Assembly (NCBI RefSeq): GCF_000003815.2
Contig: NC_049987.1
Coordinates: 10,360,307-10,424,306 of the forward strand
DNA: 64,000 nt
Source of the DNA: Branchiostoma floridae
Taxonomy: Eukaryota > Chordata > Leptocardii > Amphioxiformes > Branchiostomatidae
Direction: 5' to 3'
The notes under the pieces: generated by a model
Told to the model about the DNA's origin: nothing
The model's database searches: none
Seen by the model: the letters and a program-made list of their open reading frames with translations, nothing else
Shown here: positions 9,651 to 33,750 of the stretch, in pieces
Layout: every line of letters begins with the position of its first letter
Position numbering within the stretch: the first letter of the stretch is position 1
Position numbers and translations under genes: made by a program

Positions 9651-11523
9651 AGTTGCCGGAGACGAGCCTTTGGAGAAACCGGACCAAAAATACTCGTGTT
9701 TATATAGGTATCGTTTGTATTCTTCACATTGTGCGTCAACAGTTGTGTAGAATTTTAGTGAATCAGCGGCTACGTACATTTATACATCATCATCATCATC
9801 TCGGGTTGCTTGCCCGGACCAAGTCCACCCTCTCCTTCCAGACATCTCTGTCCCCCATAGCAAGCTAGAAAACATATATACAAAACAAAACTTATTGACT
9901 ACGAAGCACATAAAAAGCTTTTCTTCTTTTGTTTGTCTTTGCAATTGTACCCCGATACTGATACTCACTCTGAAAGGGCTGCCTGACAAAGCAACAGTGC
10001 GTTTTATGTGTGAGGAAATATATTGTCATGGAATTTTCCACGGGGGAAAACCATTACACCTTGACACTAAACCGCGGAACTTGTGTAACTTACAGTAAAA
10101 TATTACGGCGTAGGTAAATCCTCACAAAGTAACAAATGCAGAGCATGCATATCTATGTCACAACTTCACTTTCCACTCTGTCTCTGTGTACGTGCGTAGG
10201 GTAAGTGCTGAATTGTTCTGCACTCAAGCGTGTTGTTCGCAATGTTTACATTAAGATTGCGACAAAAGAATGTCATTTTCGAAAGGTTAACCAACATGTT
10301 GAAACATTTGATGACGGAATGAAAACGATACCAGAATGACAGGATCCAACCGAGCGTTTCCTATGAAACTGTTAAGTTTCTGTGAGGTGGCCTGATTTTT
10401 TGACGGTGATATTTTGCAGTCGTTTAAAGTTTCAACCTAGACGCAAATGTCAAACATAGTAGTTTTGCTCTTGGGCCTATTGCAAAACAACACTTACGTA
10501 AATGTACGCGTCTCCTTCGCACACTCTTAACTAGCTGTTACGAAATCTTGTTGCAGTTTGCTACGGCACGGTCTCGAGTCATAGGCCTTGAATACCACTC
10601 TACTGTTTTCTCCTTTGTTTGCATCCCTCTCACCTTATCACCACTCGACAAAGCACTACTCACCTGAATAAGAACCTCCGTACCTTAATATTCCACAAGA
10701 TGCATACGGTGTGTCACAGTGGGAACTTTATTTCAGGGGATTTTTCATCTGGAAAATCTTCCGCAACGATTAAACCTAGTCAAAGCCTAACAAATATTTC
10801 AGAAATGCGAGAACGAAATCAATGCAGCCTAAGGACAAAGAAGGCTTGTTGCACAATTGAACGACATTCAAAGGTCGGAGTCAGGTTGAAAGGTCCTGTG
10901 AGACGAGCTCATAGTGTTGTTAGGAAGGGGTGGAGGGACGAATCTAGATTATATGATCTCTTCCAAATCTCCTTTCAATTGAAATATATTGTGCATTTTT
11001 CTGACACCTTTCAAAAGCTAGTTGATACCACAGATCTGAACACGTAGCAATGCTAGGAAATCGGGAGTTATCACTCTAAACGTACGGTCTATACACAGAG
11101 AAAAAATTCAGTGATTTTCTGTCTGCCTTACAACTATACTTACATTTATATGGGAAAGAAGAGAAGCAAGTTTTTAAAGTTATACAGAAACAACTGTCAG
11201 AAACAACGGAAGAATTCGTCTGTTTAGCTTACCGTTGTCTTTTCAGTGTTGGCACTGACCGTCAAAGAATTGGTTCAAAGGTAAATATCAAGTACATTAG
11301 AAGCAGATATATTAATTGTTTTGTTACGACCATTTTGCCATGATTTATTCCCTATAGTATGCTAGAGTATTAGTCTAACACATGTAGGTAACATTGACAT
11401 TTGGCTATGTGAGGCGTCCAGACAAGTAGGAAATTTCCCGCAAGGTCCTTGAGTCACTGTGTTGATTAAAAGAGGAACTTGTGTGTAAATGTAAACACAC
11501 ATGATTCTCTTTTGTTTGTTGTC
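9651..11523. repeat. Large direct repeat, copy 3
   Basis: Partner of 6812-8482, about 2.84 kb downstream. It carries an extra insertion of about 95 bp at 9787-9880 that copy 1 lacks, so that insertion came after the duplication. Confidence 0.85.
9787..9880 (-). mobile_element. LINE 3' stub inserted in repeat copy 3
   Basis: The segment is absent from the otherwise matching copy 1 (6942-6950). On the minus strand it reads LAMGDRDVWKERVDLVRASNPR-like residues (contiguous run under 20 in the core), then a stop and a (TGA)n/(GAT)n tail. This is the C-terminal stub of a LINE ORF2. TATACA occurs at both junctions and could be a short target-site duplication. Confidence 0.65.
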
Positions 11524-11999
11524 TCTTTTAATTCGAATATGCGCATACACTTGTGTTCACAGCCAATTAAGAGTGAATGCTCCATTGTTTGTGTCAGAAG
11601 TATACAACATGCTAGTTTCCAGACAGACGTTTGTTAACATCGACAGTGTGGCCACTTTGTGAGGACAGGACGACACCTCTCTCCTTTCTTCACGAATGCA
11701 AAGTATACTAGTTCACCACACCAGATCGAGGTTGTTTTCAAATGACTATTTACTGGAAATAATATGGGATCAAATTGGGATCAAAGGGTATGTAGATTCA
11801 TGAGATGGGGTGCCACATTAGGCGAAACGGCCCCTGCAAGTGGTGGGTTATTTTTATGAATTACAAACAGGTGGTTCGAGAAAACGAATTTTCTGTTCGC
11901 GTGAGCATGCTAACATTCCCAAATTCCATGAGTAAAGATCTCGTATTTGTCTTGCAGGTCCAACTTGCAGACCAAGCGCAAGCGTACAGAACCTACAAT
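11524..11999. promoter_or_regulatory. Upstream region of the FN3/2A gene
   Basis: There is no confident promoter motif. A CTTGCAG acceptor-like sequence at about 11957, upstream of the first in-frame methionine chosen at 12000, means a 5' non-coding exon is possible. The reading frame stays open back to 11805, so an earlier start cannot be excluded. Confidence 0.3.
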
Positions 12000-12441
12000 A
12001 TGGGAGTCAGTCTTGAAGTTTATAGATCCAGGATAGGATTATACCGACATCGCAGTCAAAGACAATTCAAGAAAACCAAAGAAAAAATGGTGCAACTCAA
12101 AATGTTTGCCCCAGATCAACATTGGCGAAACATGCGAAGTAGTTTGCTTGTACTCTACATCTGCATGTTTTACGCTGTGATGATCTTTGAAGTTTATTAT
12201 TCTGAAAGATCGACAATGCCCGAGACACAAAGTCCCGTGACAGTTCTTCCAGCAGAGGGAAACATAGATGCCAGTCAGGTACATGACTGGGAATGTTTTA
12301 GGTCCCGTGAAGTATGGCAGAGTAGCACAGTCGCGACTGCAGGAGGACTGGGAAACTTGTGCCGGCAAGTCACGATAACAGGGCTTCTCCGGTTACTTTC
12401 TTCTGGGGACGTCGAACAGAATCCAGGTCCACCCAAACACG
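12000..12441 (+). CDS. First coding exon: signal-anchor segment plus 2A peptide
   Basis: From the methionine at 12000 the exon encodes 147 residues. Residues 1-46 are strongly basic. Residues 47-67 (SSLLVLYICMFYAVMIFEVY) form one hydrophobic helix, so the positive-inside rule predicts an N-in/C-out signal anchor. A polar stretch follows, then the 2A sequence at residues 129-144. The donor follows G12441 in phase 1 and fits the phase-1 acceptor at 12704. In-frame stops appear only downstream of the donor. If the ribosome skips, the upstream product is about 143 residues ending NPG. Confidence 0.75.
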
Positions 12442-15400
12442 GTAAGCAAACGTGTTTCAAAATCAAAACACAATCCGGAGGGTTTTGTCGTAAATTAGCA
12501 GCATTTGTGGCACAAAGCTAATAAGGCTGGTTCTTGCACCCTAGTTTTAACAAAGTTCTCTCTGCTGTACATCCTAGAATTCCGTACCTTTGCCCTATCC
12601 CAACGTACATGCCAATAAAACTACATAAAGGCTATAAAAGCATTGCCGACCGACTTGTTAGAAGTATAAAATTTTAACTTGCGTGTACCCCCTCCCTCAA
12701 CAGCAACACAACTGGCGCCAGTGTATGACCTTAAGGTCATACACACGACTCATACCGCAGCCACGGTGACATGGAAGAATCCAGGTATGTTAAGTTGTTT
12801 TCCTGTATATGGATGCATGCAGCATTGAAACTCTTGACACTTCAAATCATAACTTTTCTATTGGTTTAGCGTATGCGTCTGGCACCATAGCTTGAGAGAA
12901 ATAGCGACGTATACGTACTCGCGAGTCAAAAAGTAATGCAAGTGGTTTTGTCACAAGCGTATTTTTTCATCGAGTAGAAATTTGGCACAGACATAAATGT
13001 ACATACATGTATATGTATAGTCAAGGAGGAACATATGTTATCAGCATTTAATAAAACCATTGATCATTGGTGATAAATTAGCGGATGGCGTTTCATCGCT
13101 TGGGTTGCCTGTCAGTGACTCTAATGTTGTGGGGTTTTTTTTTGGGGGGGGGGGGGGGGGTTGTGATACATCAAAATGCTGCATCACAAACAAGCGAAGA
13201 ATATGAAAGAGAATACTTATCCATGTCATTTCTGTTATTTACAGAAACAATGAATGCGGTGAAGAAACGCTTAAGCAGCGGTTCTTTCGTGTCAGATTAC
13301 GTGATTCATGTTAGCATTCTCACACGCCAAAACGTGACACAATTCGAAACCACCCTTGCCAAGGAAACATGTCAAACAAAGGTTGAGGGTCTTCTCCCTG
13401 ATAGAATATACACGTGCGCTGTAACGATAAGAGCAGGAGGTCTTCAAAGCAAGCCGAACTCTGTGGGCTTTGAGACGCGTAAGTGCTACAACCTAACCTG
13501 ACTATACAATATCTAATATAAGTTTAAGGCTCAGAAAATTTTTAATTTTCATTTTTGAATCTGGAAGATAAGGATTATCGACTCGTAGCTATCCTCAGGG
13601 TGGGCATTTCTAACTCTGAATTCTTTCTCATGTTCAGGAGTGGAACCTGTGGAAGATTTCACTTGCGAGGGTGGCTATAAAACAATCACAGTGAGGTGGA
13701 AGAAAAGCACTGTTTCACGACTTAAGCTTGAACTCGAAAAAGATGATGGACATAATTTCGTTCCTTTCTTAAGCCATAATTGTGCTACTGCTGCATATGA
13801 AACATCGTACACTTTCAAGAGCCTTCCCCCAGCAACCAACTTTCGGGTAAATACGGTGACGTACAGAATGAGCACAATTTCCCGCGGCAGGAAGGAAAAG
13901 AAGAGTGTCTCTGTGTCAAAACGGTGCACGACAGGTACGCAGGCGTGTATTTACTACTTTCACAAATCTTTGTTACTACAATCCCATTCAATCACCTGCT
14001 AATACTAGTATATATGTGCCCATTAGATACACTCAATTTTTGTCAACTGTGCACTAGACCTATAATATCTGGCGAAGTGAAAATAAAGGTCAAAGAAATA
14101 CTTATTAAACTGGGCTCGTGCATACAGCCCTCTGTTTCTAACTCCCTTTCTTTATCTTAAGATTTCAAGTTTTATTCCTGTTTTTTAGGACTCCGTGCAC
14201 CACAAAAGCTAGAGGTTTTCTACGTTGATAAAACAAAAATTAGCATGAAGTGGAATCCAGGTTTGCAGCATAGCGAATACAAGGGCAGAACTCTCACGTA
14301 CGTGCTGAGATGGCGAGAAACGAACACCGATCTGTGGACGTGTCCTCCCACTGAAAGTACGGGGTGCACAGGAGAAATTACTGGTTTGAAACCAGGAACT
14401 AAATACGACATAGAAGTCTGCTCAAAGATGAGTGGTATGCAAAGTAGCTGGGTACCCCTTACACAACCGGTACTTACAAGTGAGTACGCAGCTGCATCTT
14501 TGTTAATATTTGAATATGGAACTCGTGTAACTTGAAGATAAGAAGAAAAAAATGCTATCAATTAGAACTGAATGTGAATTTCCTAGTGATGATTAATTCA
14601 ATTCCAACATCCAACAGCCAGTTACACGACGGTCGCATAGCTAAGAATACACACACACGCACACACACACACACAGGCACACACACCACATACATACATA
14701 AACACATGCACCGACACACACACACGCACGCACGCACACACGCCACATATATACATACATACCTACACATGCACACACACACACACACACAGACACACAC
14801 ATACATAAATACATACAGGCAGACACGCACACACACACATGCATACATACACACACACGCGCGCACATACATACATACACACACACACATATATATATAA
14901 ATACATATATATATATATATATACTCATACATCGACACATGGTGTGAGTTGTTAGCCCTTCTCTAAACTGAATTTATCGTCACAATTTATGAGTATCGCT
15001 GGTAACTCTATTTCAACTGTTTCAGAGTATGGACCTATTGGATTGAAACAAGATGCAGTCACTGACGACTCCGTTACCGTCTCCTGGAAAGAACTTGCCG
15101 GTTGCCCTGGCTTTATCGTCGGATACTGGATCGATTTAGAAAAAGAAGGAAAGATATATCCGACAGAGGAGTTAGTGGAAGGAACAAACATATACAAAAT
15201 CACTGACCTGAAACCTGCATCATACTACAAAATAAGTGTTCGCCCACAACCTGATAACAAAGAAGATGACAATGAAATAATTTCTATCTGCACATGTAAG
15301 TACTTACCATGTTTTTTTTTCTCTTGTCTTTCATATCATATATCTAGGTGACAGTTAAGCCTAGTTTGTGCCAATTACTTTATTTCATATTGTATATATA

Positions 15401-18400
15401 TTTATTACAAGTCATCCAATCAAATGCTCCTTATTACACTGTCAGTTCGTTTTGAAAACCCAATGCAACATCTTCCCACTTTGCATTGATGACATTGAGT
15501 CGTTGTCATGTCTGCTTCTTCAGATCCTGCAGCACCAGTTATCGCGTCGGCAAAGGTCACAAATGGAACTTCTTTAGACCTGACACTGAAAGAGTTCGAA
15601 CCGAATCAGAGTGCACCACATGGGTATTATAGAGTGCGTTGTTTGCCGACAAACGATCCCCTGGGAAATGGCTTTAAGGATGAGACCTTCTCTGGAACAC
15701 GTGTGATCATTGATGGTCTTGCTGAGAATACAGAGTACAATGTTTCCGTATGGTATGTCTTTCATACAAAATATGGAACAGATCTTTCAAGCGTTCATGA
15801 TACTACCACGATCAAAACAGGTAAGTAGATTAGAGGTCGGAGGCCTCATACTTTCATGAAATACTTCAAATTATACAACTTATTTACACATCTGCATAAT
15901 CTATGCATGGTGAAAGGGCTAAAAAATTCCAGAACAGAATGTAACGTTATATTTTTATATCTCCAGGTGTCAAAGTTGGAGAAAGAGAAACATGGAGCGA
16001 AGCGAAAGAAGAGCACACAATTGCGTGTAAGTAAATCGCCATTTAAGTCACAGTATGCCACGAAAATAATAATATAGCAATGTGCAAATCTTACTTGTTT
16101 ATTTTTTGCATTCCTGTAAATTTATAAGGTAGTTTCCAACTGAATAAAGAATATGTGTCCTTGATGCTATTGTACCCACTTTTCAGTGCTGCCCGCGCCT
16201 TCAAGCCTCAATATCACGGAAGGTAACGAAAATTCTCTAACGCTCTCGTGGACTTCAAACCACGACGTAGACCGTTTCATCATACAATACAGACCTGAGG
16301 CGGACCTAAATGTGACTGAACGAATCACAAGTGGGACGGAATTGTCTATAGTACTGGAAAATATACAGGCGGCGACTACTTATCTTATCTCAGTCTCTGC
16401 TGAAAGAAATGGGATCAGAAGCGACTCCGTCGAAGACAGCTTCTCAACAAGTTGGTGTTTTACTTTCTATTGAGACTTGTATTCTTTTTTGACCTGCATA
16501 GTGTAATTCATATGACCAACACATTTGTTAAGAATAGTCTGAATACTAAGTAAGAGGTAACGAGTAGCTCAACTCTCATAATTACGCCGGGTAATTACAT
16601 GAAGAAAATGGTGAATTCAAAGAGTTCTATTAATACAACATGAGTTATCCCATAGTATGCACACTTAAGATATCCAGGTGTTCAACACATTCTTGAAAAG
16701 GTCGCTCTATAAGCTCTTTCAACATTCCGAGTCCTGGTCTGACCATTCTCATGGCTTGCATAACAATGCACATGCAAGGTTTCTTTCACTTTTGACATAC
16801 TACCCACCAAACATCTCGCCGCGCATGCGTACTCGGAATGGTGTACGCGCTTATAGGATAGGAATATGGCGATCTCAGGACACCTGGCGGGATGATGAGA
16901 GCTGACGTTTCGTGTACTGCACATATACTGCAGTAATTTGAAACAAAGTTTCTAGGGCATTTTCATATCAATTCTTTCATCATTCTGTATCTCTCTATAT
17001 AGCCACATATGTCAAAACCATACATTAATCCCCGCATTGCCACGGAGATGTTCGCCCTTATTTCAGCGAGGGAATTCACTATTCTTTGTCAATTCACATT
17101 CAAAATTATTATACACAAATATGATCCTGTTTCTAATAACTAACCAACGTTACCATCAGTCAACTGCAAATAATGCGCATACTATTATTTCAATATCTGT
17201 ACATATGATTTGTGTACGATAGTTTTTGTATAATAAGTTGAACTTGATCCACAAAGTTAACGTATTTTAATGAAATTGATGTCAATCTGGGAAACTTTTT
17301 TATCTTTCGCAGGGCCAAATAAAGTCACCGAACTAACAGCGACGGGAGTAGCAGACACAATTAAAGTCAGATGGACCGATAGCTATTCAATGAACAATTA
17401 CAGAGTTAAGATATTTTCAAAAGATGTGTTTGTCCATCAAGCACCAATTCCTACTTCTGCCAAAGAACTGACTATAACTGAAGCCATCCGACCAGAAACT
17501 GTGTATGAGATATCTGTTTATGCTGTGTACAAGACCAAAGAATCCAGACCGACTACAACACGATGCAGCACAAGTAAGTTTAGGCTTCACGGATAAGATC
17601 CGCAATAACGTGGCCCTTAAAACTGTGGTCCAGACTGTATAGAAAAATGAAAATCTAGATACTTTAAGAATCTTCTATGGCTATGCTATAGAATCACTAC
17701 GAATGGGGTATAATATTTGTAGCGGCCTTTACGGTGTCTGTTCATGCAAGACCACCATAGTTGGACTGTTTGCAAAAAAAAAAAGGAAACAATTATACGT
17801 AATACATATATATGTATAAAGTTGGATGATTTGTGTGGCATAGATCTATTAGATTCCTTTATTACTAGCTAATATGTATCGATATTTCATGTTGTGCATA
17901 ATTCATTTTCAGGATCAATGAGACCATGGGGGCTGTCCACATCCAGCACGGATACCACAATAACAGCAAAATGGACGCTCCTGTTGATGCTACCGGAATC
18001 GTGGGCTACAAAGCTCAACTTAAATGCATGGATACAACTAGAACAATAGATATTCACAACATAGAAGTCTCAAGTGATGTGAGTCATGCCACGGAATTTC
18101 ATGACATGTTTTGTAATTTGACGGCCGAAACAACTTACAGTTTTTCAGTTTCTTCCATATCTGGCCCCGAAGTCAACCCTCTGTTCATCACTCCTCTCAC
18201 ACAAAAAGCGGAAACAGGTAAGGGACCTTATCCTACACAAACGCAACACTGATTCCTCAGTACGTACTATGTGGAAGTAAAAGGTATGCTCAAACGATAT
18301 ACATACATGTATCTGTTAAAAATGCACAACACACAAACGTCTTCTTTCTCGCAGCTAAGTTTGCCATGGTAGTTGTAACTACCGGGTACCATAGCAACAC

Positions 18401-21400
18401 AAAACACTATTCATGATACACAATTGTTGCAGTCTTTTATGACACTTAAATGCGATCACGTGATATTAAGAGTTAACCTGTTATGATCTCCTTGATATGA
18501 ATTCCCCATTGGGTTTCCATTTATAGGTCCTAAAGCCGTACAAGGTCTAACTGCAATTCCAAGCGCAACGTCTATTGTGGCTCAGTGGAAACCTGTTAAA
18601 GGTACAGTAACCATGTAATGACTACTGCAAATTGATGACTGAAGAAATCATTAGTTACTTGTGTTCTTGTGTACAAATTTCTTTCGATTGGCCTGTAATA
18701 TCCTCGAATTCTTTTTTATCATACCATGCCATGCAATTACTGATTGGAGAGAAGGCAAGTGCCTGTAATACTAGTATCTCGAAGAATAAGCAGATCGCTT
18801 AGGCTAATCAACGTAAGAACATATATCTTGTAAAACCAATAAAATAGGTTAGACTACATCAGGGGCATTTCTGCCGGTACACAAATCCCTTTATTGCTAT
18901 TCACATTTTCGTTTCATGTGTTGCTGGAATAGGGAGTGTTTTCTAACTGTACTGATTAACATTTCAATTTCAGGACACAAGTCCTGGCCATGGTTTGGTA
19001 CAAGAAAGGACGATCCAGAGCTGACTGTTTCTATCACGAATACCAAATCCCCTCAAATGCTTGTGCATCGTCCGGTAACTCTAAGACCAGGATCGACTCA
19101 GAAAATATTTACTGATTTACAACCTGAAACAGACTATGTCATCACTGTAACACCTCTACATTCCTCTACGGCAGTACAGTCCTCGGCAATAACAAAGACA
19201 ACAAGTGAGATATTCCTTGTATATATAAATTGTACCGCGGCGTTTATGTATAATTACTGTGACTGGTCGTCTCTGTTAGATTCTAGCTAGCTAATAATTT
19301 GTATTCTTCATAGGTCGTTGATAAAATTGCTACGATTTGCGAGGAGTAAGTTGAACGTTTAAGAGCACGATTGCTTGTTTATCAGGACGCATGTCTATGA
19401 GTCTGCAGAACCTCTGGATTGAATACTAGTATTTTACCATTCCGTAGTGCTTATAATCAATGAAATGATCGTTTCATTTCTTGGGAACAATAATGAAATG
19501 AAAATAAAAAGATGCTAGAAATATTTTCAGAGCGTTAAAGGGCGATTAAATATTACCTTTGAATAGCCTTTTATAACCCCACAAACTTAAATGTGTAGGG
19601 TACGTGATTACGTATCTGGTGGCAGACATTGAAATAGTTTGTAATTTAATATGGTTGCACTTTCAGCCCTTTTTTGCAATTCTATGTGGTTACACTTATA
19701 TGTAAAAGTTAAAGGTTAAATTCCTTCCCGCACCAGATGGTGCATACGGCAGCGCCATTTCCGTTTCTGTAGCGCTGGGCATATTTTGTGCAGTTACAAC
19801 AATAGGAGAATACTAGTCCGCTGGTAGTGGTGTATACGTTCAAGTACTACACTCTTTCTCAAATGCGCTAATATGCAGTGCTGGAGAAAGCAGCATGTAC
19901 AGCATTGGTATGACTTGGACGGGATCGAACTCAAGACCTACCGAATGCAATACGAATATTCTGTCCACTTGGCCATTTCACTTGTATGTAGCCTCTCTCG
20001 CAGACTTTCGGAGCGTCGGCGTTTTTGATTTGGGGGGGTGGGGGTGGGGCTGATTCACTACGGTTTTCCTAGCCGGGGATCCCGAGAAGGAAGTGGCCCG
20101 GCGGCCAACTAAAAAATAAACACCACCGCTCCCAAAGTCTACCAAGGAGGCTACTGGTATACATGTGTTCCTTTAAATTCCAAGATTGAACCATTGTTTG
20201 ATTGATTGACTCATTGAGTGAATATTTTCCCCAGAATCGACGGAAAAGAGCTTGGTTGTCACTGACCGAACTACCACGTCTATTTCTGTGAGGTGGGAGG
20301 CTTTGTCCGAAGACGACACTAGGTATAGTCCAACCATTGAACCAATTGATCAGGAATTAAATCATGACATAGATACAGATGTGAATAACACGACATGTGT
20401 CTTTAAGGGACTGGAACCAGGCACTGCTTACAAAGTGTCACTAAGCTTGGGGAATTACATTTCCACATCCACAAAGCCAGCACCTCCAAAGGATGTGGAA
20501 CTAATTCTTTCTTCTGATGAAAGTTTAACCATTAAGTGGGCTCCACCAAATGGACAGGTTGACTCTTATAGAGTTTGTCTAGATCAAACTCCAGTTACGT
20601 GTGGCATCGGTGACTTCGAGTACCCATTTGTAAATCTGACACCTGGCCGCTTGTACACGGTCACACTGGAATCCTGTAGCAATGAAGAATTTAGCATTCC
20701 TAGTTCAAAGCATAAACGAATTCCGCCATGTAAACCTATGTTACGGGTCTCTAACACCACAGAGGATTCAATAACGGTAAAATGGCATTCGGTCAATGGA
20801 CAGAAAGAGAAATATATTTTGCAACTTTACACAAATGGTAAAACTTTTCGTACACATGAAATTTGCGATACTGAGCAAATCTGCCATGAACATATATTCA
20901 CTGACCTTACACCTGCTAGAAATTACAAAATTTCTGCTGTCACCCAGATCGACAACGTTCCAAGCAAGACATTCGAACTAGATGCGAAAACAATAGTTCC
21001 TTCTCCTGAAAATCTTGACATATACGAAGTGGGAGAAGACTATATTACCGTGAACTGGACTACAGTTGTCGGTGATATAACCGGTTATCTCCTACGAATC
21101 GAGGCAGTGGCATATGACGACGAGCCATTAGAACGTCATTGTGATGCAAACACTACTAGATATAAACTCACCCCACTGATCTCAGGGCGGAAGTACCACA
21201 TATCGGTATTCGCTCTGAGTGGAAGCGACAGAAGTACGCCGCGAAGTACGAAGCAGTATACCAGAGTACGCCCTCCAGGTAATCTAGAAGTAGGCCCTGA
21301 TACTGACTTTATAAGGATGAATTGGACGCCTCCTGATGGAGATGTTGAGTGGTATGACATTGCGATAGCCGACACATTTGGAAACTGTGTTCTAAAGACC

Positions 21401-24400
21401 ATAGAAGGGAACATTTCGTCTTACACAGTAACTGATGATAAACTGACACCTGGAACACTCTACAATGTAACACTCGAATCAAGATGCGGGGAAAGCCGAA
21501 GTGGGCAACCTCTCATGAAGCAGGTGACAACTACACCTGTTGCCCCATTGCTAGAAGTAAGCCGCCATGACATTGGCCATGACCACGTAACTGTATACTG
21601 GTCAGAAGCCAGGGGCAACGTGGATCGTTATATGGTCTCCTTGCATCCAAGTAACCATGGAATTCGTCCAGTGTCAAAGGATAGCGAGAGAAAGTGCACA
21701 TTTTATGGACTTACACCCGGCAAGGGATACACGATTAAGATCTGTTCCGAAATTAACGACAATATACAGAGTTATCCTATCGAACAACGAATTTTCACCA
21801 GGCCATTACCCCCTGCTCGTATTGACATCAAAGAAAGCGACATAACAGAGACAAGCATGAAGGTAGAATGGAAGTCACCACCTAAAGGAGAAGTTATGAA
21901 ATGGTATCTGCAAATATCATCGAACACAGGTACTGCTTTATCTGAACATAGGATAGTAGTGATACAAGCACAACCTTCACAGCACTTGTACCGCTATACA
22001 TTCTATGGATTGCGTCCCGGTAGATTGTATGATGTTGGCATTTTAGCTGAAAGTGGAGGGCAATGCAGTGAAGAAAAGAAGATATCTAGAAGGACGAATG
22101 TTGATAAACCCAAGATAATATTACATAAACACGCAGTAAGACTCAAACACATCACTGTGGAATGCGAGCCATTGGATGGGGATTCCGACAGTTGTGAGGT
22201 GATGGTAGCGTTGTCAACAAATCCAACTGTGTATGTGAACGGTGTTACCAACAGGAAAACCAAAAATCATTGGAAACACTGCTTTGATGCATTGGAACCG
22301 GGAACGGAGTACAAAATTTCTGCTACCGCGAAAAGTGGACGCAAACGAAGCGAATCATTCAACACGGTAGTTAGGACATGCGTGGATGCTCCTTCAAATC
22401 TACGGATTGATGAACAAGCTGATGGTGCTATTATCAGGTGGTCTGCTGCAAAGGGTTATGTAGATGGTTATAACGTTACTTTGTCATCTGGTAAAGAAAT
22501 ACCGATGGAAAGATTTGTACCAGCGTCTGAAGATCCTAACTTAAACTTCCCACACCTTGTGCCAGGTAGAATGTACAAAGTATCAGTGTCGTCTATCATT
22601 AAGCAAGACGAAGATGAAGTTGCCACAAGTACTACAGTCTCCTCTGAATTTCGCGCAAAAACACAAATGCCAAAAGTTGCCATCGACAAAATAGACATAA
22701 ATAGTCTGAAGATCTCTTGGCACGATGTGACAGGTGAGCGGGATCGATATCATGTGTCTATTTTCCCATCTGACTCGAGAAAGTCAGAAACTGATATAGC
22801 AGCACCCATCATCAATAAGAAGGAGAAACTAACACACGTTTTTGAGAATCTGACACCAGGCAAGATGTACACAGTATCAGTTGTAACCATCACGGGTGAA
22901 GATGAGAGCGAGAGGGACAGTATACAACAAAGGACACGACCCGACAAGCCAAGACTGCGGAAAGGCGACTCAGTGGTAAATGAGCGACAATATTTCCTTG
23001 AATGGGAGCATTCCAAGGGCGTATTTGATAAGTATAACCTTACACTAACACCAGCTGTTGACGAAATGAAGGAACTTTGCTCACAGGGAATCCTTGAAAC
23101 AAAGGGGAACAGCATGATTGTCGATCTAGTGCGAGGCATCAAGTATTGTGTTTCTCTCTGGGCAGTAAGTGGAGAAGAAAACAGTCTGATTGAAACCACC
23201 ACAATAACAGTCTTGCCAGATCAGCCGCTGGATGTTAACGCGACGTCCACAGATACAACCATCACTGTGACATGGAAAGAACCAGAGGGCGTCAAGACTG
23301 GATATGTGTTGAAACTTTTCACCAGGAATTCAAGAACAACAAAAGAAGTGAAAAACATTAAACATGGAGAACAACTGAAAACGTGTTTCGAGAAATGCAC
23401 CCGAGGTAGAGAATACGACTTAACGATTTGCACTGTCGCTGGCACTGAACAGAGCCCGACTGATTCTCATCAGGTACAAACAGCTGTTAGTAAACCTTTG
23501 CTTAAAGTTGAACACACTGAGCTATCGAGCATCGAATTATCTTGGTCAGAAGTTTATGGAGACAAGACAGGATACTGTCTGTCTATCTATGAAGGAGATG
23601 GTCAGTACATAGCGTCCAAAGAGATCGACAGCAAAAGTGAAGGATGGTTCCAGATATGGTCTAATAGCTACCAGCATAAATTCGATGGACTTGACCCTGG
23701 GAGGCGGTATGAGATAAGAGCATTTACCCGATTCGGAGATGGAAAGAGTGCCTGTACGTCGGTCTTCGTACAGACAGAGGTTAGCCCAGTGCAAAATATA
23801 CAAGTAGAACCATCTCAATCTGAAACAGGCTTCGCTGTAAAGTGGGATTCCGTTGTCGGTCATGTTGACTATTACATCGTTGCTCTCGAAACATCTTCAG
23901 GGACGCCAATCGACAAGGCTGAAGTTACAGGAACGACACATACCTTCGATACCTTCGATCTTATACCTGGGACAAGGTATAATATCCGGGTCAAGAGCGT
24001 AAGTGGTGATAAATCTAGTACCGAGGAAATAGTTTCAAGAATTGTGCGCCCTTGCAAAGCTGAAGATGTAAGTGTCTTGCCAAACGGACCGCGCAGTCTA
24101 AAAGTTTCCTGGGAAGAAGCAAAAGGCAGGAAAACACATTATGTGGTCACTATTTCTCCAATTATCCGTGGAAGTAATAGTCAGGCAATAGTTGACACGG
24201 GGCAGCCTCTTGTATGCGAATATTCTGGGTTGACAAGCGGCCGCGAGTACACAGTGACAGTTACAACAGTCAGTGAAGGTGTCGAAGGCTATGCTGTAAA
24301 GGTGTCCCAAACAACGAATGTGTCAGCGCCGTGCAATGTCTTTGTCAAAGAAAGGATGGAGGAAAATCTAACAGTGTCATGGACCCCGGGTGAGGGACAT

Positions 24401-27400
24401 GCTGACATGTATCATGTCAGGGCCGTTCTTGTTGGGTCCAGTGACTTCGGTACAACCAGTCAGATCGCTGCACCCGTTAACAACACAGACGAGGTTGTAT
24501 GTTCAATCAGTGCCCTTCAACCTGGCACATGTTACGATATCTACGTCAAAGCAGAATCAAACGGACGTTGCAGTCACGAGAGTCATACTCAGGCATATAC
24601 TCTGATTGGTGGAGTAACAGAGGTTCATGTCAGTGACGAAACGATTGAGTCGTTTAAAGTCAACTGGGTTGAGGCACGTGGTCAAAAGACACACTATGTC
24701 CTGTATGTAGACCCCAGCAACGAAGTAATTGTCGTCCAAGGTCAAGACAAAAATTTGGATTACGAATTCACAGGAATGCAACCTGGGTTGGAATACAAAG
24801 TGGTCATCCACACAGGTAATCAAACTGAAAAGAGCGAGCCTACGGAATTACATGCATGGACAAAACCTATGCCCCCCAAGTACGTTGAAATAACGAACGT
24901 GGAGCAAGACAGTTTGACGGTACGTTGGTGTGGCCCTGAAGATGGAGGCTATGACAAGTTTAAGGTCTCAATACGTCCACCAGACGATGAAGCTGTTGAG
25001 GTTGAAGGAGAAATAACGGAGCATATGTTTCGCGGTTTGATTGCAGGGCGTACGTATGAAATATCAGTTTCTACCGTCTTTCATTGTCTGGAAAGTACGC
25101 CCCAAACGGTTAAGAGAATGACCGACATCAGACCACCTACTTTGGAAATACAACCAAATGGAATCTCACAGGAACATATTACTTTGTCTGTGTTGAACCA
25201 TAAATGTGATTGCGACGAATACAAGATTATGGTTGAACCGGAAGAAACCGGCGACGGGTATCTCAAAACAGTAAGAAGAGAAACAGATGAAGACGTCCAA
25301 GTAATAGAACATCTTGTTCCTGGGCGAAAATATAAAATTTCGGCCGTGTCAGTGACACAGAATCAGACAAGTGCTGTCGAGAGTATCTCAGCAAGGACAA
25401 CACCAGCAAAAGTGGTAGATATGCGGACTGAAGTAACGGGCAGAACTTGTACTATCACATGGGACGAAGCACCTGGTGACAAAGACGGTTACTACATACA
25501 GCGTCTGTCGAAACGCACTAATGCTGGCTCTAAGAGAGAACCTATATTCGTCAAAAGCGGTCAGACCCCACTAAAGTGCACAATTCGGTATCTCACTCCC
25601 GGAAGAATATATGATGTTTCTGTGAGAACAGCAAGTCCAAGCGACGAGGGCACCAGGACAATGAGCGAGCCAATATGTAGACAAGTGCAAACATCCGTAT
25701 CCAAAGCAGTCATAGAATGCAGTGGTCATACAGACACGAGTGTCACAGTCAAATGGCTCGATGTTGATGGGGATAAAACCAGCTATAAACTGTGGATAAT
25801 ACCCAGCGATGGAGATAATACTATCAGAGATGTTCCCATAATGACAATCCAATCACGTACACACAAATCAATTAACCGTGAGACATTTACCGGGCTCCAG
25901 CCAGGTCGGAAGTACAAGATATTTTGTCAGACCGTAAGTGGAAATAAGGAGAGCGAGGAAAGTGTCATAGAAGTGCAGACTACTGTATGTCCACCTCAAG
26001 ATGTCAAAGTCCTGACTTCCTTGGAACATTCATTGTCAGTAACTTGGTCACACGCCAAAGGTGATAAAGATTCATACAAACTTAGTCTACTCTTGGATAA
26101 AGCTGAAGTTGCGAGTGATACTGTACCGGCGCCTGCTGAGGAGACCCATGATCTTTTAAGTTACACATTCCAAAATCTCAGTGCTGGATTTGAATATGAG
26201 TTGGAGATTTCAACCTTGAGTGGAAAACAATACAGTGTTGTGAAGCGGTATCCAGCTCAGACCAGGCCAAGTCCTCCTCAACATGTCACCATAGTAAAGC
26301 ATGGGGTGGAGGGATTAAGAGTGACATGGGACGAGGCAGAAGGAAAGATGTCTTACTACGGCGTTAGCATATCGCCTTCGGACGGTTGGAAAAGACAACA
26401 AGTGAAATCAAATCCGGAGAAGTCCTACGAGTGGACTTATGGTCGACTGATACCAGGCCGAAAATACACTGTCTCGGTGACGACCGTAAGCGGAGTGGCT
26501 GAAAGTGAACCTGTAGTAAAGGAAGAAGTTACTGTCGTGGCGGAACCCAAAGATGTGAAAATTGAACACCGAGAAGAGACGCGTTTGACGCTGAGTTGGA
26601 ACCCGGCTAAAGGAGATAAGATTGGCTATTTTGCGTGTATTGAGCCCATTGTCTCTGACCATTCTTCCAACGAATTGTTACCAACAAATTGCATTGAAAA
26701 TAAAGAGGGGCCCATGTCATGTACGTTTGATGACCTACAGCCTGGAAGGCAGTATGCCATGACATTGAAAACAAAATCATGTGATCTTTACAGTGAAGAA
26801 GTCACATTAAAGGCAAGAACTTTAGTCAGTCCTCCAAAGACCCTTCAGGTGAGTGATATCACGACTGACAACATAACACTGACATGGTCTGAGGCCGATG
26901 GAGACAAGGATTACTACCAAATCAAGATCTCACCAGCAGACGGATTAAATCCAGATGGGAATGTCAAAAAAGACGAGGACAGGTTGTACACATTTTCAGG
27001 ACTTACTGCGGGAAAGAGCTATGTTGTGTCAATACGGACATACAGTGGTGGAGAATACAGTCACGACAAGAACATTTCAGAGAGAACAATCCCAAATGCG
27101 CCAGAATTCGAAAACATTGTCGCCAACATTGTTGACAAAGGAATTCAGGTTGCCTGGCAGCCCGTCAAAGGAGAATTAGATAGTTATCTCCTTCATCTCA
27201 AGCCTAGCAAGAACACTAATGAAAATCGCGACGAAAAGTGGCATTCAGTTGACAAATGTGATACTTCACACATCTTTCCTGATCTAACCTTTGGACGGCT
27301 ATACGTAATCACAGTTGAAACAGTAAGCGGTATCAAAAATAGCAGTCCGGTCCCAATTTTGCAAAGACTTACAATTGACCCACCAAAAGACCTAAAGGAG

Positions 27401-30400
27401 ACAAGACGAGAGGAAAGGAGAATTGTAGTTGCTTGGGAAGCTGCAATTGGGGATAAAGACTGTTATCGTGTCCAACTGAGTGACTGCAACGGTTTGGTTA
27501 AGGTGGGAGAAACAACAAAGACAACGTGGTCATCTGATGAACTTGAACCCGGGACTTTATACGTGATAAACGTTCAAACGGCTTGTGAAGGAGAAACTAG
27601 TGATGTGGCCACTATCGAAGTTCGGACAGTCGCATGTAGTCCGACGTCGGTTTACGTGGAAGATGTAACAGAGGAAACTATTTCTGTCACCTGGCCGGAC
27701 GCTGATGGAAACAAAGATAAATACAGTGTTCAAATCTACGATGAGGAGGGTATCGAGGTGTACAAGGATGAGTTAGCGCCAACTATTCTTGAGAAAACGT
27801 TCAAACGTTTGGTACCTGGACGGATGTATCAGATATGTATACAATCGCTCTGTGGCGAAGATGATCTGAGCACGTCTGCACCAATTTGGCAACATCAACG
27901 AACCAAAGTGGCACAGCCTGGTACTATCAGCATGAAGAACATAGAACTGGGCCGAATTTTCTTTTCTTGGGAAAAGTCAGTTGGTGACGTTGACCACTAC
28001 ACAGTAGACGTATCTTCAAGTGACCCTGGCGAAAACATTCCGAAGCTCGATCCAGTCGGTCGTGACCGTTGGTTGGAGTCCAATGCTGATGGCCTCACAG
28101 CGGGAAGGCTCTATACTATATCCGTGAAGGCGGTGAGTGGGGGTGATGTCAGTGAACCTCGAACAATTCGTATCAGAACCAAAGTTGATAAGCCAAGAGA
28201 GACTCATATAGCGGCTGTGGGAGAAAACACGTTAATGGTCACCTGGGACCAGGCAACAGGGGACAAAGACAGATACATGCTTGCGATAGAACCAAAGCAT
28301 GCCACCTGCACACCGGTAGAAGCCAATGATGACCTTGTTCAAATATTTACCAATCTTGTGCCTGGTACATTTTACAAGATTTCAATCACTACAGTAAAGA
28401 GTGGCTACTGTAGTGAGGTATCTTCCTGTAACGGGTGGACACGACCGTTGCCTCCATCTAGAACACGACTCTCAAACATTCTTGAAAAAAGGATCACAGT
28501 TTCATGGGATCATGTTCCTGAAGGTGGGTATGAAAAGTACAGAGTGTCAATTGATCCAGCCGATGCAGACGAACGCCTTTTATCAGCGGAGAACCAAGAA
28601 TGCGTCTTTGATGGCCTTACACCTGGTAGGGAATACACTGTTGGCGTAGTAGCAATTTGCGGGGATTGCCCGAGTAGACGTAAAATTTCTAAAATACGAA
28701 CTACTGTCAATACACCAAACCTTATCATTGAATCACAGAACGTTACCAAGAACTGCATCCCAGTGCGCTGGACACGGTCGGAAGGAGACTGTGACAAGTA
28801 CAAACTAACTATTTATACTGAAAAAGATGAGACGGAAACAAAATCAGTACCCATATTTATACCAAATGGGTCGCGTTTTGAACATACCTTTGACCCATTG
28901 GTTCCCGGTCGCGAGTACACAGTGTCTCTTGTTGCTATAAGTGGACGGGGCCATAGTAAACCGAGCCGTCGAGTTCAGAGGACAATAGTAGCTGAGCTAG
29001 CCAGCTTCAACCTCAGTTCTACAGAAGATTGCATTCATGTTGAATGGGAGAAAGCAGACGGTGATGCTTCGGGCTATCTCGTTACCCTGACCTCATCAGT
29101 TCCTTCTGACGAAGAGAAAAAGAAGTTCATTGGAAGTGATGAGACGTTAAAAACTTCGTTTAACCAACTGGTGCCCGGGCGTATTTACATCGTTACCATA
29201 CACACGGTAGTCAGACCAATACGCGGGGCTGATGTTTTCAGTAGCCCTGTGTCACATCAGAAGCGAACGGATGTCAAGCCACCCAAATTAAAGGTGGACA
29301 TGGTGACAAAAACAAGCATCCGAGTAAAATGGCCAGACGTTGTTGGAGATAGAGACGAATATCGATTACACTTAAGCCCCACTGACCAAACTCCTGTAAG
29401 ACTTGTTGTTGCAGCTGAAAAATCATCCCAAGACAAGGAGTACACCTTTGATGGTCTAGTTCATGGAAAACTTTATGAGATTACGGCTTTTACGATCAGT
29501 GGTGGTCAAGATAGCAAAGCGGAGACAATTAACGTACGGACGTTGGTATGCCCACCTAAGAACAGTCGACCAGGATCAACTAGGACATGTACCGCGATAT
29601 CAGTACAATGGGAGGAGCCGGATGGCGAGTATGATGGATTTTACCTTCGACTGTTTGATCCTTTTGATGTACAGCAGTCAAAAATTAGCAAAGACAAAGG
29701 TGAACTTTGCCACTCATTTGCGAACCTTGTTTCAGGCAGGAAATACACGATCACAATTGAAACTATGAATGAAGGAGAAAGAAGTGAAAGTGTAGAAATA
29801 CACATACAAACTGAAGTCGCAGATCCGGAAGGTTTAGTTGTGGTTCCTGACGGAGACGGAAAGCTTCGAGCGAGTTGGGAACATTGTGCAGGGGATAAAC
29901 GAGGCTATCTGATGATGATATCTCCCAATGATACCATTTCAGGCCCTACACGATTCATAAAACATAACAGCCCTCTTGAACACAACTTCAGTGGCCTTGT
30001 TCCCGGAAGAATGTATTCCATTACCCTATGTGCAGTTAGTTACGGAGAACAAAGCAAGGGAAAAAACAAGGAAGTGCGAGCAACAGTAGCGTCTCCTCAT
30101 AATGTATGTATAGATGCAAAAACCGAAAGAAGCATGTCTGTCAGCTGGTACGGTTCACAAGGAGAGGTTGATGGCTATTTAGTCAGTATTTCTGACGAGT
30201 CGGTGACATTGCAACAGGTTTGCATCAAGCACAGGGGCGCGGGTGTTCTGATGGGTTACACGTTTCCAGAATTGACACGGGGCGTATGTACAAGGTATCA
30301 GTCACTGCGATTAGAGAAGACGATAGCAGTTTGACCATCTCTCCACCGGCCTCCAGAACAGTTGTTAGCCAGCCCAATGGTGTTAAAATTGTGGAAGAGT

Positions 30401-33400
30401 CGGTTGACTCTATACTAGTCAGTTGGTTGGAGGCCAATGGTTGCAAGGATAGATACCACATTGAGATACTTGACGCATACGGCCCTCATTACCAAGAAGT
30501 TGAGGAAGTTGCCTTGCAAAGGGGCGAACGTGAAGCAAATGACATACCGTCGTATAGATATGTTTTCAAAAATCTAACCGCCGGAAAAAGATACCGTATC
30601 CGTGTCCTAGCTGAGAGTGGGAACGATACAAGTAAATGGACCACGACTTTCGGAAGGACAATACCTCTTCCGCCCGAAGGAATCGAGATTGTTACAAAAC
30701 AAGACACTGACATCGAAATCAGATGGAAACCAGGAAACGGGGAATATGACCAACACAATTTTTTTCTGTATAGTGAAAGAGTCCCAGAGGGCGTTGTGTC
30801 TGACTCCGAAGTCAGTGACAGAGCCACCAACTCACATTCTGAAACGAATATACCTGTGACAGATAGCGAAGACCGTGAAAGTGCACTCATTCACAAACAA
30901 TGGGCATGTGTCATGAGAGATCAGGAAACAGTACACATTTTCCGTGGATTGGAACATGGTCGCATGTACATGATAAGAATAACCACGAAGAGTGAAGACA
31001 AAGAAAGTGACCCAGAAGAAGTTAAGATCAGGACAACTGTGGATACCCCGAAGGACCTGAGAGAAACCTATCACGACGAAACGTGCATTGCCGTTGAATG
31101 GAATCACGCCAGGGGAGTAAAAGATAAATACTTAGTTCAAGTAGCATCAAGCAACTTCATCATTAATTCCGAATATATTGCGGCTGATGACCGTCTCGAA
31201 TGTACGTTTGATGGGCTATATCCTGGTCGTCTATATGCAGTTTCAGTACAAGCATGTTGCGGCGAGAGTTCGAGTAAACCCATCGAAAGGTATATGAGGA
31301 CAACGGCAATACCACCACAAAAAATCTCCATAGACGAAGTGAAAGAAAGGATGATAACAGTAACGTGGCCTGAAGCATGGTGTGACAAAGACCACTACAG
31401 AGTAACGCTTATCCCTGAAGGTGATGGAGGTCAGGGAGAAATACAAGACAGGGAAGTGAGTTGCGATATCCAGAGAAAGTACAGTTTTAGGAACCTTGTT
31501 CCTGGGCAGCTGTACAATATTTTTATCCGCACTTTAAGTGGTCGGAAAGAAAGCGAGTCCAGGCCAATCGATATTCAAAGACGAACTCTAGTAGCAAAAG
31601 CCAATAATCTTAAAGTTTCTGATGTTGACTACAAAAGTTTCACTGTTGAATGGGAACAAGCCGATGGTGTCCAAAATGGTTACAGAATAAACTTAAACCA
31701 TAACGGCCAACAGCAGCGGTCTAAGTATGTTGACGCAAGTGACGCTGTCCCTTTCAATGTTGTCTTTGATAACCTGACTGAAGGGAGATTATACACAATA
31801 CATGTCATCACGATTAGCGGAGAAGAAACAGCTACAGCTGAGATTTCCCAAAGGACCAAAGTGTGCCCACCCTCCAAAGTGCAGGTCATCAGACAGAACA
31901 CAGTACCTTCTAGTCAAGAGGATGTAACAGTTTCGTGGAGCCGACCCAGCGGGGATCTGAGTGGTTATCAGTTAGATATATTCGATTGCAAGAACAATGT
32001 TCAGCTGGACAAGTCAGTGTGTACCAAACATATTCGATATACATTCCAAGGTCTTGTTGCCGGGAGAAAGTACAGAATAGATTCAAGGACAATCAGCGGA
32101 GAAAAGGACAGTGATCTATGTAGCATTTATGAGCGGACAGTTCCCCGACCCCCAGATGACGTACAAATACCAGAACAAGACGTTTCCTTAAATAGCTTAA
32201 AGGTTACCTGGAAGCCACCAAGAGATAGTGACGAAGAATGCTATCTTTTGAGTATTCATAACACCAAGGGACTTGAAAAACAGGAGGTCGAAATACCTAA
32301 AGAACTAAATAAAAATGGAACACTTTCATCAAAAAGGTCAACTTCCAACGTGGATTTATGTGACACGCTAGAACATATTTTCAAAAACTTGACTGCGGGA
32401 ACAGAATACAGGTTGTCAGTGTTATCAGTAAGTGCAAAAGGTAGCACAAGTATGCCTAATGGAGAAAGAAAGAGCATACAAATCGAAAAGCAACAAATGA
32501 CACTTGTTGCTAAACCCATCCTTCATATAGATGAGAAAGACCCAGATCAGATACAGAAAAAAGCACTTCTCCTAACCTGGATACCTGGAGAAGGGAAAAC
32601 TGATGCATACTGTATCAGGATTTCACCCTTTGACAGGAGCAAAAGCGCTAAGACCTTGCTTGTTGACGAAGTCGAATCCTTTTGTACAAATTCAACATGT
32701 ATACACAGAGACGAAGACCAAAGACCTGACGACAGACTTTCGACAGGGGCGGACGCAGAGCGCCACTATCACCACAAAGTCGATGACCTAGGGTGTTTAA
32801 CAGAATACGAAGTCACAATGGCAGCGAGGAGTTACAAAGAAAAACGAAATGCCGATGGTACCCCAAAATTTGAACAATCAAACGAGAAAGCACATTGGAT
32901 TACCTTCACGAAACCAGATCCACCACAAAGAGAGAGAATATACTGCGGAAATGAGAGTTTCGACTCTTTTATGTTATACTGGCAGCCACCAAGAGACCCT
33001 GAATCTCGGAGAACTACACACAACTATAAAATCAGATACCAGAATATTTCTAAAGACATGCCAGCCACTGATTTGTATTCACAAGGCAATACCCATGTGA
33101 AGATTGAGAATACAGTGACCAATGCCAAGTACAGAATAGAGATTGCGTCGATAACGAAAGTAACAAACCACGACAAGATTGAAAGTGAGATAGAGAGTGA
33201 ATTTGTTGAAATGACGTATAGAACCCAGTCCCGGATGAAAAAATTCGCTAGGTACGTTGCCGCCGGCTTAATTCAGGTTTCAGTCATTGCAATCGTCTTT
33301 GCTAACTTCTCAACCTTTTTTGGTATATATTGTGGTAATTGTAATTGTTTTGGTACAGACGACTCTAATAGTCGAAGTGTAGACGAGTACCCAACTATAG

Positions 33401-33750
33401 CAACTAACTCAACGCCTACAGCAGGGACGGAGACGCTGGCTCCAAGTACTCAAAGCTGCCTTTTTGAAAAAGCATGGACTCCGTTTCTAAGTTTCGTTGC
33501 AATGCTTTTCATCTGGGTTATAGTCACTGTATTCACCATCGTATGCTTGGTCTTCTTGTACAAGTTGAAAGTAAGGGTAAAGACCTTTAAAAGCGACGAG
33601 GAGGCAAGAGTCGAAGGTGTGCAAAGAACCTTTGTTAAGGCAAGGGAAATACCAAGTGATTTTAGCATTGAAGAAATAGATAACACCATAGGTGACACAC
33701 TGGAGGAGGACAGCAGTGAAATTACCCAACTCCTGCCTGGCAATGGCTAG
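12000..33750 (+). CDS. Giant FN3-repeat membrane protein with N-terminal 2A motif
   Basis: Fourteen coding exons: 12000-12441, 12704-12784, 13245-13478, 13638-13934, 14189-14479, 15026-15295, 15524-15820, 15967-16026, 16187-16450, 17313-17573, 17913-18217, 18527-18601, 18974-19204 and 20235-33750. All splice junctions are phase 1 with GT-AG ends. Exon 1 holds an anchor and a 2A motif. Exons 2-13 give nine FN3 domains plus a 20-residue linker (exon 8). Exon 14 gives about 46 more FN3 domains, then two membrane segments and a short tail. The FN3 units (LTPGRxYTVSV, GDKDxY) resemble those of receptor phosphatases such as PTPRB/PTPRJ, but no phosphatase domain follows. Two single-base frame breaks (about 17976 and 30282) mean this copy may be a pseudogene, a damaged allele or an assembly error. 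Function unknown; adhesion or recognition is only a guess. Confidence 0.8.
12387..12431 (+). other. 2A ribosome-skipping motif (StopGo), DVEQNPGP
   Basis: The codons read LLRLLSSGDVEQNPG then P, matching the canonical 2A core D-(V/I)-E-x-N-P-G-P, preceded by a leucine-rich helix as in active 2A sequences. Skipping would occur between G (12426-12428) and P (12429-12431). Cellular 2A motifs are known from non-LTR retrotransposons and from some immune-type genes of sea urchin and amphioxus. Activity of this one is inferred from the motif alone. Confidence 0.85.
12704..19204 (+). CDS. Exons 2-13: nine FN3 domains in phase 1-1 exons
   Basis: Exons 2+3 (12704-12784, 13245-13478) and exons 12+13 (18527-18601, 18974-19204) each split one FN3 domain. 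Exons 4, 5, 6, 7, 9, 10 and 11 hold one whole domain each. Exon 8 (15967-16026) is a 20-residue linker rich in Glu and Lys. Every length except that of exon 11 is a multiple of three. The domains show the FN3 Trp after the B strand (VTWKN, VRWKK, MKWNP, VSWKE, LSWTS, VRWTD) and the tyrosine corner (LKPGTKYDIEV, LKPASYYKISV). Confidence 0.8.
13135..13160 (+). repeat. T9/G17 homopolymer junction
   Basis: A run of T (13135-13143) passes straight into a run of G (13144-13160) in intron 2 of the FN3 gene. It is a likely site of sequencing and replication slippage. Confidence 0.9.
14648..14925. repeat. CA-rich / TA-rich microsatellite
   Basis: A compound (CA)n, (CATA)n and (TA)n array fills intron 5 of the FN3 gene. 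It produces long open frames on both strands (Thr/His or Cys/Val repeats), which are compositional and not coding. Confidence 0.9.
16451..17312. other. Intron 9 of the FN3 gene
   Basis: The donor is GTTGGT, unusual but GT, and the acceptor is TTTCGCAG. No coding exon could be supported in between. Confidence 0.5.
17970..17980 (+). other. Frame break in FN3 exon 11
   Basis: Exon 11 (17913-18217) is 305 nt, whereas every other internal exon is a multiple of three with phase 1 at both ends. The entry frame reads an FN3 A/B-strand region ending ITAKWT. The C-strand onward (APVDATGIVGYKAQL to the phase-1 donor) is one frame back. One missing base near AAATGGAC at about 17976 restores both frames and the exon phase. 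Confidence 0.75.
19735..19988 (-). mobile_element. tRNA-derived SINE
   Basis: On the minus strand an A box TGGCCAAGTGG (19965-19975) and a B box GAGTTCGATCCC (19921-19932) are spaced as in a tRNA promoter, followed by a non-tRNA body. The flanks do not form an acceptor stem, so this is a SINE head and not a functional tRNA. Confidence 0.65.
19989..20153. mobile_element. Fold-back MITE
   Basis: Arms TAGCCTC...GACTTT(C/G)GGAGCG at the left and their complement at the right end (CGCTCCCAAAGTC..., GGAGGCTA) form an imperfect inverted repeat of about 40 bp. The arms share a TAGCCT start and the GGGAGCGG block with the element at 59601-59728, so both may belong to one family. Confidence 0.6.
20235..33750 (+). 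CDS. Single 13.5-kb exon: about 46 FN3 domains, two TM helices
   Basis: Entered from a phase-1 CCAG acceptor at 20234. I counted 36 tyrosine-corner motifs (L-x-PG-x-x-Y) before the frame break and about 10 after it, at 85-95 residue spacing, roughly 4,500 residues in all. The repeats share a core W..A.GDKD.Y and F.GLTPGR.YTVSV.TVSG..S. The last FN3 is followed by RMKKFAR and TM1 (about 33252-33333). A Ser/Thr-rich loop with an NST sequon and several Cys comes next, then TM2 (about 33480-33561), KLKVRVK and a 60-residue acidic tail with EITQLL. No introns interrupt it, in sharp contrast to the one-domain-per-exon 5' part. Confidence 0.85.
30275..30290 (+). other. Frame break in the giant FN3 exon
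   Basis: The upstream frame reads YTFPELT and then leaves the FN3 pattern, ending at 30334. The downstream frame, open from at least 30220, becomes FN3-like at GRMYKVSVTAIRE. The sequence TTGACACGGGGCG lacks one C relative to the LTPGR codons used in dozens of neighbouring repeats. No X-XXY-YYZ slippery heptamer with a following structure is evident, so a programmed frameshift is unlikely. Confidence 0.85.
33718..33735 (+). other. Acidic dileucine sorting motif in the C-terminal tail
   Basis: The tail ends EITQLLPGNG. E-x-x-x-L-L matches the [DE]xxxL[LI] consensus bound by AP adaptor complexes, which suggests endosomal or lysosomal trafficking if the tail is cytosolic. Confidence 0.5.

Follow-up and report, generated by a model that had tools for sequence, protein, structure and literature searches.

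A candidate StopGo (2A) sequence between a predicted type II signal anchor and a long FN3 array in an amphioxus gene

A 64-kb stretch of Branchiostoma floridae DNA, hereafter the window, contains a coding-like exon in which a predicted type II signal anchor is followed by a 2A (StopGo) sequence, in phase with a long FN3 array. The motif and the coding exon are well supported. We infer the splicing, the skipping, the membrane sidedness and the biological use. In the reading that we prefer, this is a type II anchor-2A-FN3 gene in which the efficiency of skipping would set the membrane side of the FN3 chain, and we give it slightly under an even chance. The features of the first exon are as follows.

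12000..12441, plus strand: exon 1, coding for an N-terminal region, a signal anchor, a luminal-side stretch and the 2A (frame score, ATG context, donor)
12132..12188, plus strand: membrane segment, predicted type II signal anchor, residues 45-63 (hydropathy, charge)
12384..12407, plus strand: Leu-rich upstream context LLRLLSSG (compared with the L-rich motif class of PMC12846837)
12408..12431, plus strand: 2A core DVEQNPGP, residues 137-144 if the ATG at 12000 is residue 1

The sequence DVEQNPGP fits the 2A core pattern (D/G/C/N)(V/I)ExNPGP, and the predicted skip point falls between G143 and P144 (12428/12429). Directly before the core stands LLRLLSSG, which is Leu-rich, ends in SG and was assigned to the L-rich class by inspection, without a profile score. 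As described for the L-rich StopGo class of RNA viruses, (A/S/C)G precedes p12 = D and S is preferred at p15 (PMC12846837); here p15 is Q. The original prediction of a canonical 2A core after a Leu-rich stretch was borne out, and so was its phase-1 splice donor. Its estimate of about 143 residues for the upstream peptide holds for a translation start at 12000. It had also placed the end of the 2A six codons before the donor, but the exon actually ends 10 nt past the last Pro codon of the core (P, K, H and one base).

NPGP occurs once in the six-frame translation of the window, and the pattern used found no other NPGP or near form in these frames. Chance expectations were calculated from the residue make-up of the gene's long ORFs for an assumed proteome of 1.25e7 residues. 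For a proteome of this assumed size, the calculation gives 0.055 occurrences of the bare core D[VI]ExNPGP, 4.9e-4 of the core preceded by [SAC]G, and 1.7e-6 of the core preceded by LLx[SAC]G. Shuffling the exon-1 peptide produced the core in 0 of 200,000 shuffles. Since the bare core is expected 0.055 times per assumed proteome, the core alone would sometimes arise by chance across many scanned genomes. DVEQNPGP with its upstream context is far from chance.

No stop codon interrupts the frame of exon 1 between 11796 and 12518. Around the ATG at 12000, position -3 is A and position +4 is G, and the donor CACG/GTAAGC follows position 12441 (12441/12442) in phase 1. The N-terminus is not fixed, because the acceptor-like site at 11957/11958 would allow another exon upstream of 12000. 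The coding character was scored by codon log-odds trained on the giant FN3 exon versus the gene's introns, with 1098 control frames of 441 nt from six stretches hand-picked as presumed non-coding. The exon 1 frame scored +0.167 and the control maximum was -0.038 (0 of 1098 reached exon 1); the other five frames of the region were all negative. The score was +0.283 in the 2A half (12207-12440), +0.036 in the membrane-segment half (12000-12206) and +0.021 in the open stretch upstream of the ATG (11796-11999). Eleven FN3 exons scored +0.17 to +0.66 in frame.

Two protein searches covered exon 1. An 832-residue spliced query, scored over residues 1-450, gave no exon-1 relative at E <= 1 among 5290 candidates of about 458-1456 residues, and a 253-residue query gave none at E <= 10 among 413 candidates of about 139-443 residues; these length ranges leave gaps, and absence from the database is not established. 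Viral contigs gave one pattern match and no relative of exon 1. PDB sequences gave no match up to E = 10, PHROGs gave one match at E = 0.046 that we took as noise, and matches to the retrieved proteins and elsewhere in the window were all at chance level (E >= 1.3).

These results bear on the origin of the exon. Exon 1 or its 2A tail may have been exonised from a retrotransposon ORF, maybe as a recent, non-functional addition. Non-LTR retrotransposons of animals, sea urchin among them, are described as carrying 2A-like sequences (PMC4981915), which favors such an origin, as does a reverse-transcriptase ORF at 187-909 (minus strand) within the window itself. However, codon use in exon 1 resembles that of the host FN3 exons, and no Pfam domain was found in exon 1. 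Pfam also found no retroelement protein domain in the ORF that carries the 2A, and FN3 comes next. Furthermore, 11700-12703 has no similarity to the rest of the window, and neither the length-limited protein searches nor the viral contigs yielded an exon-1 relative. We consider a retrotransposon origin quite improbable.

Downstream of exon 1, we assigned the following features, choosing the exon ends by eye from the reading frame and GT/AG.

12704..13478, plus strand: first FN3 domain, in two exons, 12704-12784 and 13245-13478 (fn3, 28.7 bits as a joined piece)
13638-13934, 14189-14479, 15026-15295 and 15524-15820, plus strand: FN3 exons (frame, GT/AG)
15967-16026, 16187-16450 and 17313-17573, plus strand: FN3 exons (frame, GT/AG)
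17913-18217 (frame broken), 18527-18601 and 18974-19204, plus strand: FN3 exons (frame, GT/AG)
20235..30334, plus strand: giant FN3 exon (frame open 20222-30334, 3370 codons, 33 fn3 stretches)
30196..33747, plus strand: last ORF, in another frame, with FN3 domains (8 fn3 stretches), a hairpin of two membrane segments and a tail

Exon 1 has splice-compatible ends with the first FN3 domain, which is split over two exons, and could be joined to it in frame; this domain begins about ten residues or fewer past the 2A Pro. The junctions assigned to the FN3 exons after exon 1 are in phase 1, matching the exon 1 donor, and 11 of the 12 exon lengths are multiples of three. All seven N-terminal pieces scanned matched fn3 at E < 1, five of them above the profile cut-off of 25 bits. 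The six single-exon pieces among them all matched, four above the cut-off.

The gene has two frame breaks. First, the exon 17913-18217 is 305 nt long, and the halves of its FN3 domain lie in different frames. Second, the frame shifts near 30280, between the two long ORFs. Either break is possibly an assembly error or (recent) damage. The giant FN3 chain of the original prediction is present as exons, and the sequence given interrupts it at these two breaks. Its claim of a 2A in an FN3 gene stands as far as the coding-like exon, the single membrane segment before the motif and the phase with a Branchiostoma-type FN3 array are concerned, with the two breaks downstream to be set against it.

For the giant exon, residues 1-1000 were scored against the 7993 candidates sharing most words, of about 1850-5900 residues. 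Among the best-scored candidates, the nearest database protein was P0002 (B. floridae x B. japonicum), which is 83% identical across 20504-27547 and 71-76% identical in two exons further upstream; for P0003 (B. floridae x B. belcheri) the search listing gave 67%. Judged by these matches, the gene is a Branchiostoma FN3 array. The P0002 model begins inside the counterpart of exon 16187-16450, runs from the counterpart of exon 17313-17573 into the giant exon without the broken exon, and ends near 27547. The P0003 model ends in reverse-transcriptase-like sequence, and neither model reaches exon 1. P0002, P0003, P0004, P0006 and P0007 are Branchiostoma FN3 arrays like the window gene, annotated as "receptor-type tyrosine-protein phosphatase beta-like" or "tenascin-X-like"; the phosphatase catalytic domain PF00102 is not listed for any of the five. 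P0004, P0006 and P0007 share the C-terminal hairpin with the window gene, and the P0002 and P0003 models stop before it. Unlike the window gene, all five models lack NPGP and a relative of exon 1. NPGP-like patterns among the 90 giant-exon matches together with P0001 were confined to exon 1 itself and P0089, whose NPGP is unrelated and without a 2A core.

Alternatively, exon 1 may lack a junction with the FN3 exons, or damage may have hit the locus; in either case the motif would never act as described. The length-limited protein searches found no gene model with exon 1, two frame breaks lie downstream, the broken exon is absent from P0002, and the end of P0003 is reverse-transcriptase-like, all of which fit this explanation. 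On the other hand, the donor and phase of exon 1 fit the FN3 exons, and P0003 is in frame across the equivalent of the break near 30280. A long-dead copy would not have preserved an ORF of 3370 codons intact at a protein identity of 83% to P0002, which speaks against an old pseudogene. We regard an unjoined exon or a damaged locus as unlikely.

Two observations were made alongside. In P0003, which is annotated as "tenascin-X-like", the FN3 domains run into a reverse-transcriptase-like C-terminal end (Pfam PF00078), perhaps through a model or assembly fusion. An alternative first exon resembling the N-terminus of P0006 was considered and rejected: tblastn with the whole of P0006 gave no match starting before 20000 (E <= 1e-5).

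The membrane topology was assessed from hydropathy and charge. Exon 1 is predicted to encode an N-in/C-out type II signal anchor, because K/R exceed D/E in residues 1-43 (11 versus 3) and D/E exceed K/R in residues 65-144 (9 versus 5); the 15-residue flanks of the segment alone carry 2 versus 1 K/R, a weak bias. At the other end of the gene, hydropathy marks two membrane segments at residues 1017-1035 and 1103-1121 of the last ORF. The outer flanks of this hairpin carry 4 and 5 K/R per 15 residues and the inner flanks 0 and 1. P0004, P0006 and P0007 share the hairpin segments, the NC and C(L/F)FEKA motifs and the charge pattern, and their hairpin loops contain, by eye, several N-X-S/T sites, as expected of a lumenal loop. 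At the hydropathy threshold used, no N-terminal hydrophobic segment was found in these three models; the same test detected the signal-like N-terminus of P0005. The window gene falls into a Branchiostoma FN3-hairpin grouping of our own, defined by an array followed by a two-TM hairpin with K/R outer flanks. The FN3 array is predicted to lie on the cytosolic side, because of a hairpin charge pattern that is common to three paralogue models (possibly incomplete) without a hydrophobic N-terminus. As a side observation, a C-terminal two-TM hairpin (33100-33747, plus strand) with predicted cytosol-facing FN3 domains is unusual for a receptor phosphatase-like annotation.

In the mechanism that we propose, exon 1 would provide a type II signal anchor and then an L-rich-class 2A just before the long FN3 array. 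The 2A glycine lies 80 residues past the membrane segment. The anchor would be inserted by the time the 2A acts, because this spacing exceeds the 65-70 residues reported to span the ribosome and translocon together (PMC2978324). A skip at G143-P144 would release a 143-residue type II membrane peptide and a separate FN3 chain that starts with Pro, has no signal and stays on the cytosolic side. The C-terminal two-TM hairpin would hold this chain at the membrane, in the layout predicted for the paralogues. If the skip failed, the anchor would stay fused and the array would be pulled toward the ER lumen, with the hairpin seated against its charge pattern. The efficiency of skipping would then decide the membrane side of the FN3 chain. 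The motif, the coding-like frame, the splice-compatible exons, the hydrophobic segments, the charge pattern and the shared hairpin support this mechanism; the paralogue models may lack N-terminal exons, which is a point against it. Expressed as a chordate sidedness switch, StopGo would yield either a cytosolic-side FN3 giant held by its hairpin, together with a type II peptide, or a lumenal fusion with two anchors, with skip efficiency, perhaps through the docked translocon, setting the ratio; in this form we hold the proposal to be rather doubtful.

The same arrangement has been built artificially. In engineered reporters with a type II anchor, the downstream product is reported to be cytosolic when skipping works (de Felipe et al. 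2010, PMC2978324). The upstream product was membrane-targeted, and apparent slipstream behavior was traced to failed skipping, which left a fusion in the ER/Golgi (PMC2978324). We dropped "slipstream" translocation of the downstream chain as a candidate, because the authors themselves withdrew it (PMC2978324). These constructs have the order of the window gene, namely type II anchor, spacer, 2A and signal-less protein, but are artificial, whereas the window gene is a natural candidate. Together with the hairpin, the published anchor-2A-reporter work suggests a location for the FN3 chain, a point on which the original prediction is silent: after skipping the chain would remain cytosolic-side, and only a fusion left unskipped would enter the ER.

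The reporter work also raises the alternative of a genuine 2A that the docked translocon largely inhibits. Most of the product would then be an uncleaved type II protein with the FN3 array lumenal or extracellular, and separation would be minor. As reported in PMC2978324, some type II anchor-2A constructs that were efficient in vitro stayed mainly uncleaved in cells. N-X-S/T sites bear on this point. They occur in the window array at 1.40 times expectation, with 1.30 in the C-terminal FN3 part and 1.32 in P0002. Six PTPRB ectodomains had ratios of 1.45-1.99, one PTPRQ had 2.16, and two fibronectins had 0.61-0.68; three paralogues (P0004, P0006, P0007) gave 0.92-1.16 and P0003 gave 1.01. The sequons of the window gene lean toward a lumenal array and against the cytosolic-side reading. 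Most FN3 receptors among the matches, such as PTPRB, are extracellular, which agrees with an inhibited 2A. Against it, the charge pattern of the C-terminal hairpin does not suit a lumenal array, and the hairpin occurs in three paralogue models that show no N-terminal hydrophobic segment. Cys counts on sidedness are only suggestive. With FN3 units cut by motif, 5 to 26 per protein, the window gene has 1.77 Cys per unit (26 units) versus 0.33 and 0.53 in two PTPRB proteins, a contrast that speaks for the cytosolic-side reading but is made less clean by two PTPRQ proteins (5 units each) with 1.0 and 1.4. Even numbers of Cys per unit were not in excess in the window gene. We think it unlikely that the 2A is mostly inhibited, and retain skip-dependent sidedness as the preferred reading.

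StopGo elements are said to abound in RNA viruses and to be rarely found in cellular genes (PNAS 2026, PMC12846837). The window 2A shares with the L-rich class (motif 2/6) of that source the D(V/I)ExNPGP core and a Leu-rich context ending in (A/S/C)G, but it lies in a host FN3 gene rather than a viral polyprotein and has Q, not S, at p15. A 2024 review names NLRs as cellular examples of 2A (PMC11512398). A targeting switch based on an N-terminal 2A has already been described for cellular genes, the NLRs of sea urchin: in SpNLR2A, a 26-residue N-terminal 2A was put to the test and divides the products between cytoplasm and secretion (Roulston et al. 2016, PMC4981915). As in SpNLR2A, the window gene is an animal cellular gene that combines a 2A on the N-terminal side with an ER-targeting segment, and skipping would decide the downstream compartment. 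In SpNLR2A, however, the 2A of about 26 residues at the extreme N-terminus is, as described there, itself the predicted signal sequence. The window gene is not of that type: its 2A, predicted from sequence, ends at residue 143, a separate type II anchor (residues 45-63) lies 80 residues before it, and an FN3 array with a C-terminal hairpin, not an NLR, follows.

If the proposal is true, this chordate gene, a natural type II anchor-2A-protein arrangement, would suggest that animals decide membrane sidedness through StopGo. The gene would also offer a native system for the effect of the docked translocon on the 2A reaction. Among the papers listed by our literature search, no report came up of a 2A in amphioxus or in an FN3 gene; the surveys of Odon et al. 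2013 and Rao et al. 2025 may list one, the latter reportedly covering viral and eukaryotic 2A sequences.

The window contains several other features.

187-909, minus strand: reverse transcriptase ORF (RVT_1, 51.3 bits)
2276-3076, plus strand: RRM protein with an RD/RE-rich tail (RRM_1, 62.1 bits), presumably resembling the U11/U12 snRNP 35 kDa protein
7926-8123 and 10592-11044, plus strand: similar-looking translations, perhaps a dispersed repeat upstream of the gene
54797-54930, minus strand: SCARNA14-like small Cajal body RNA (Rfam RF00582, 43 bits, gathering score 40)
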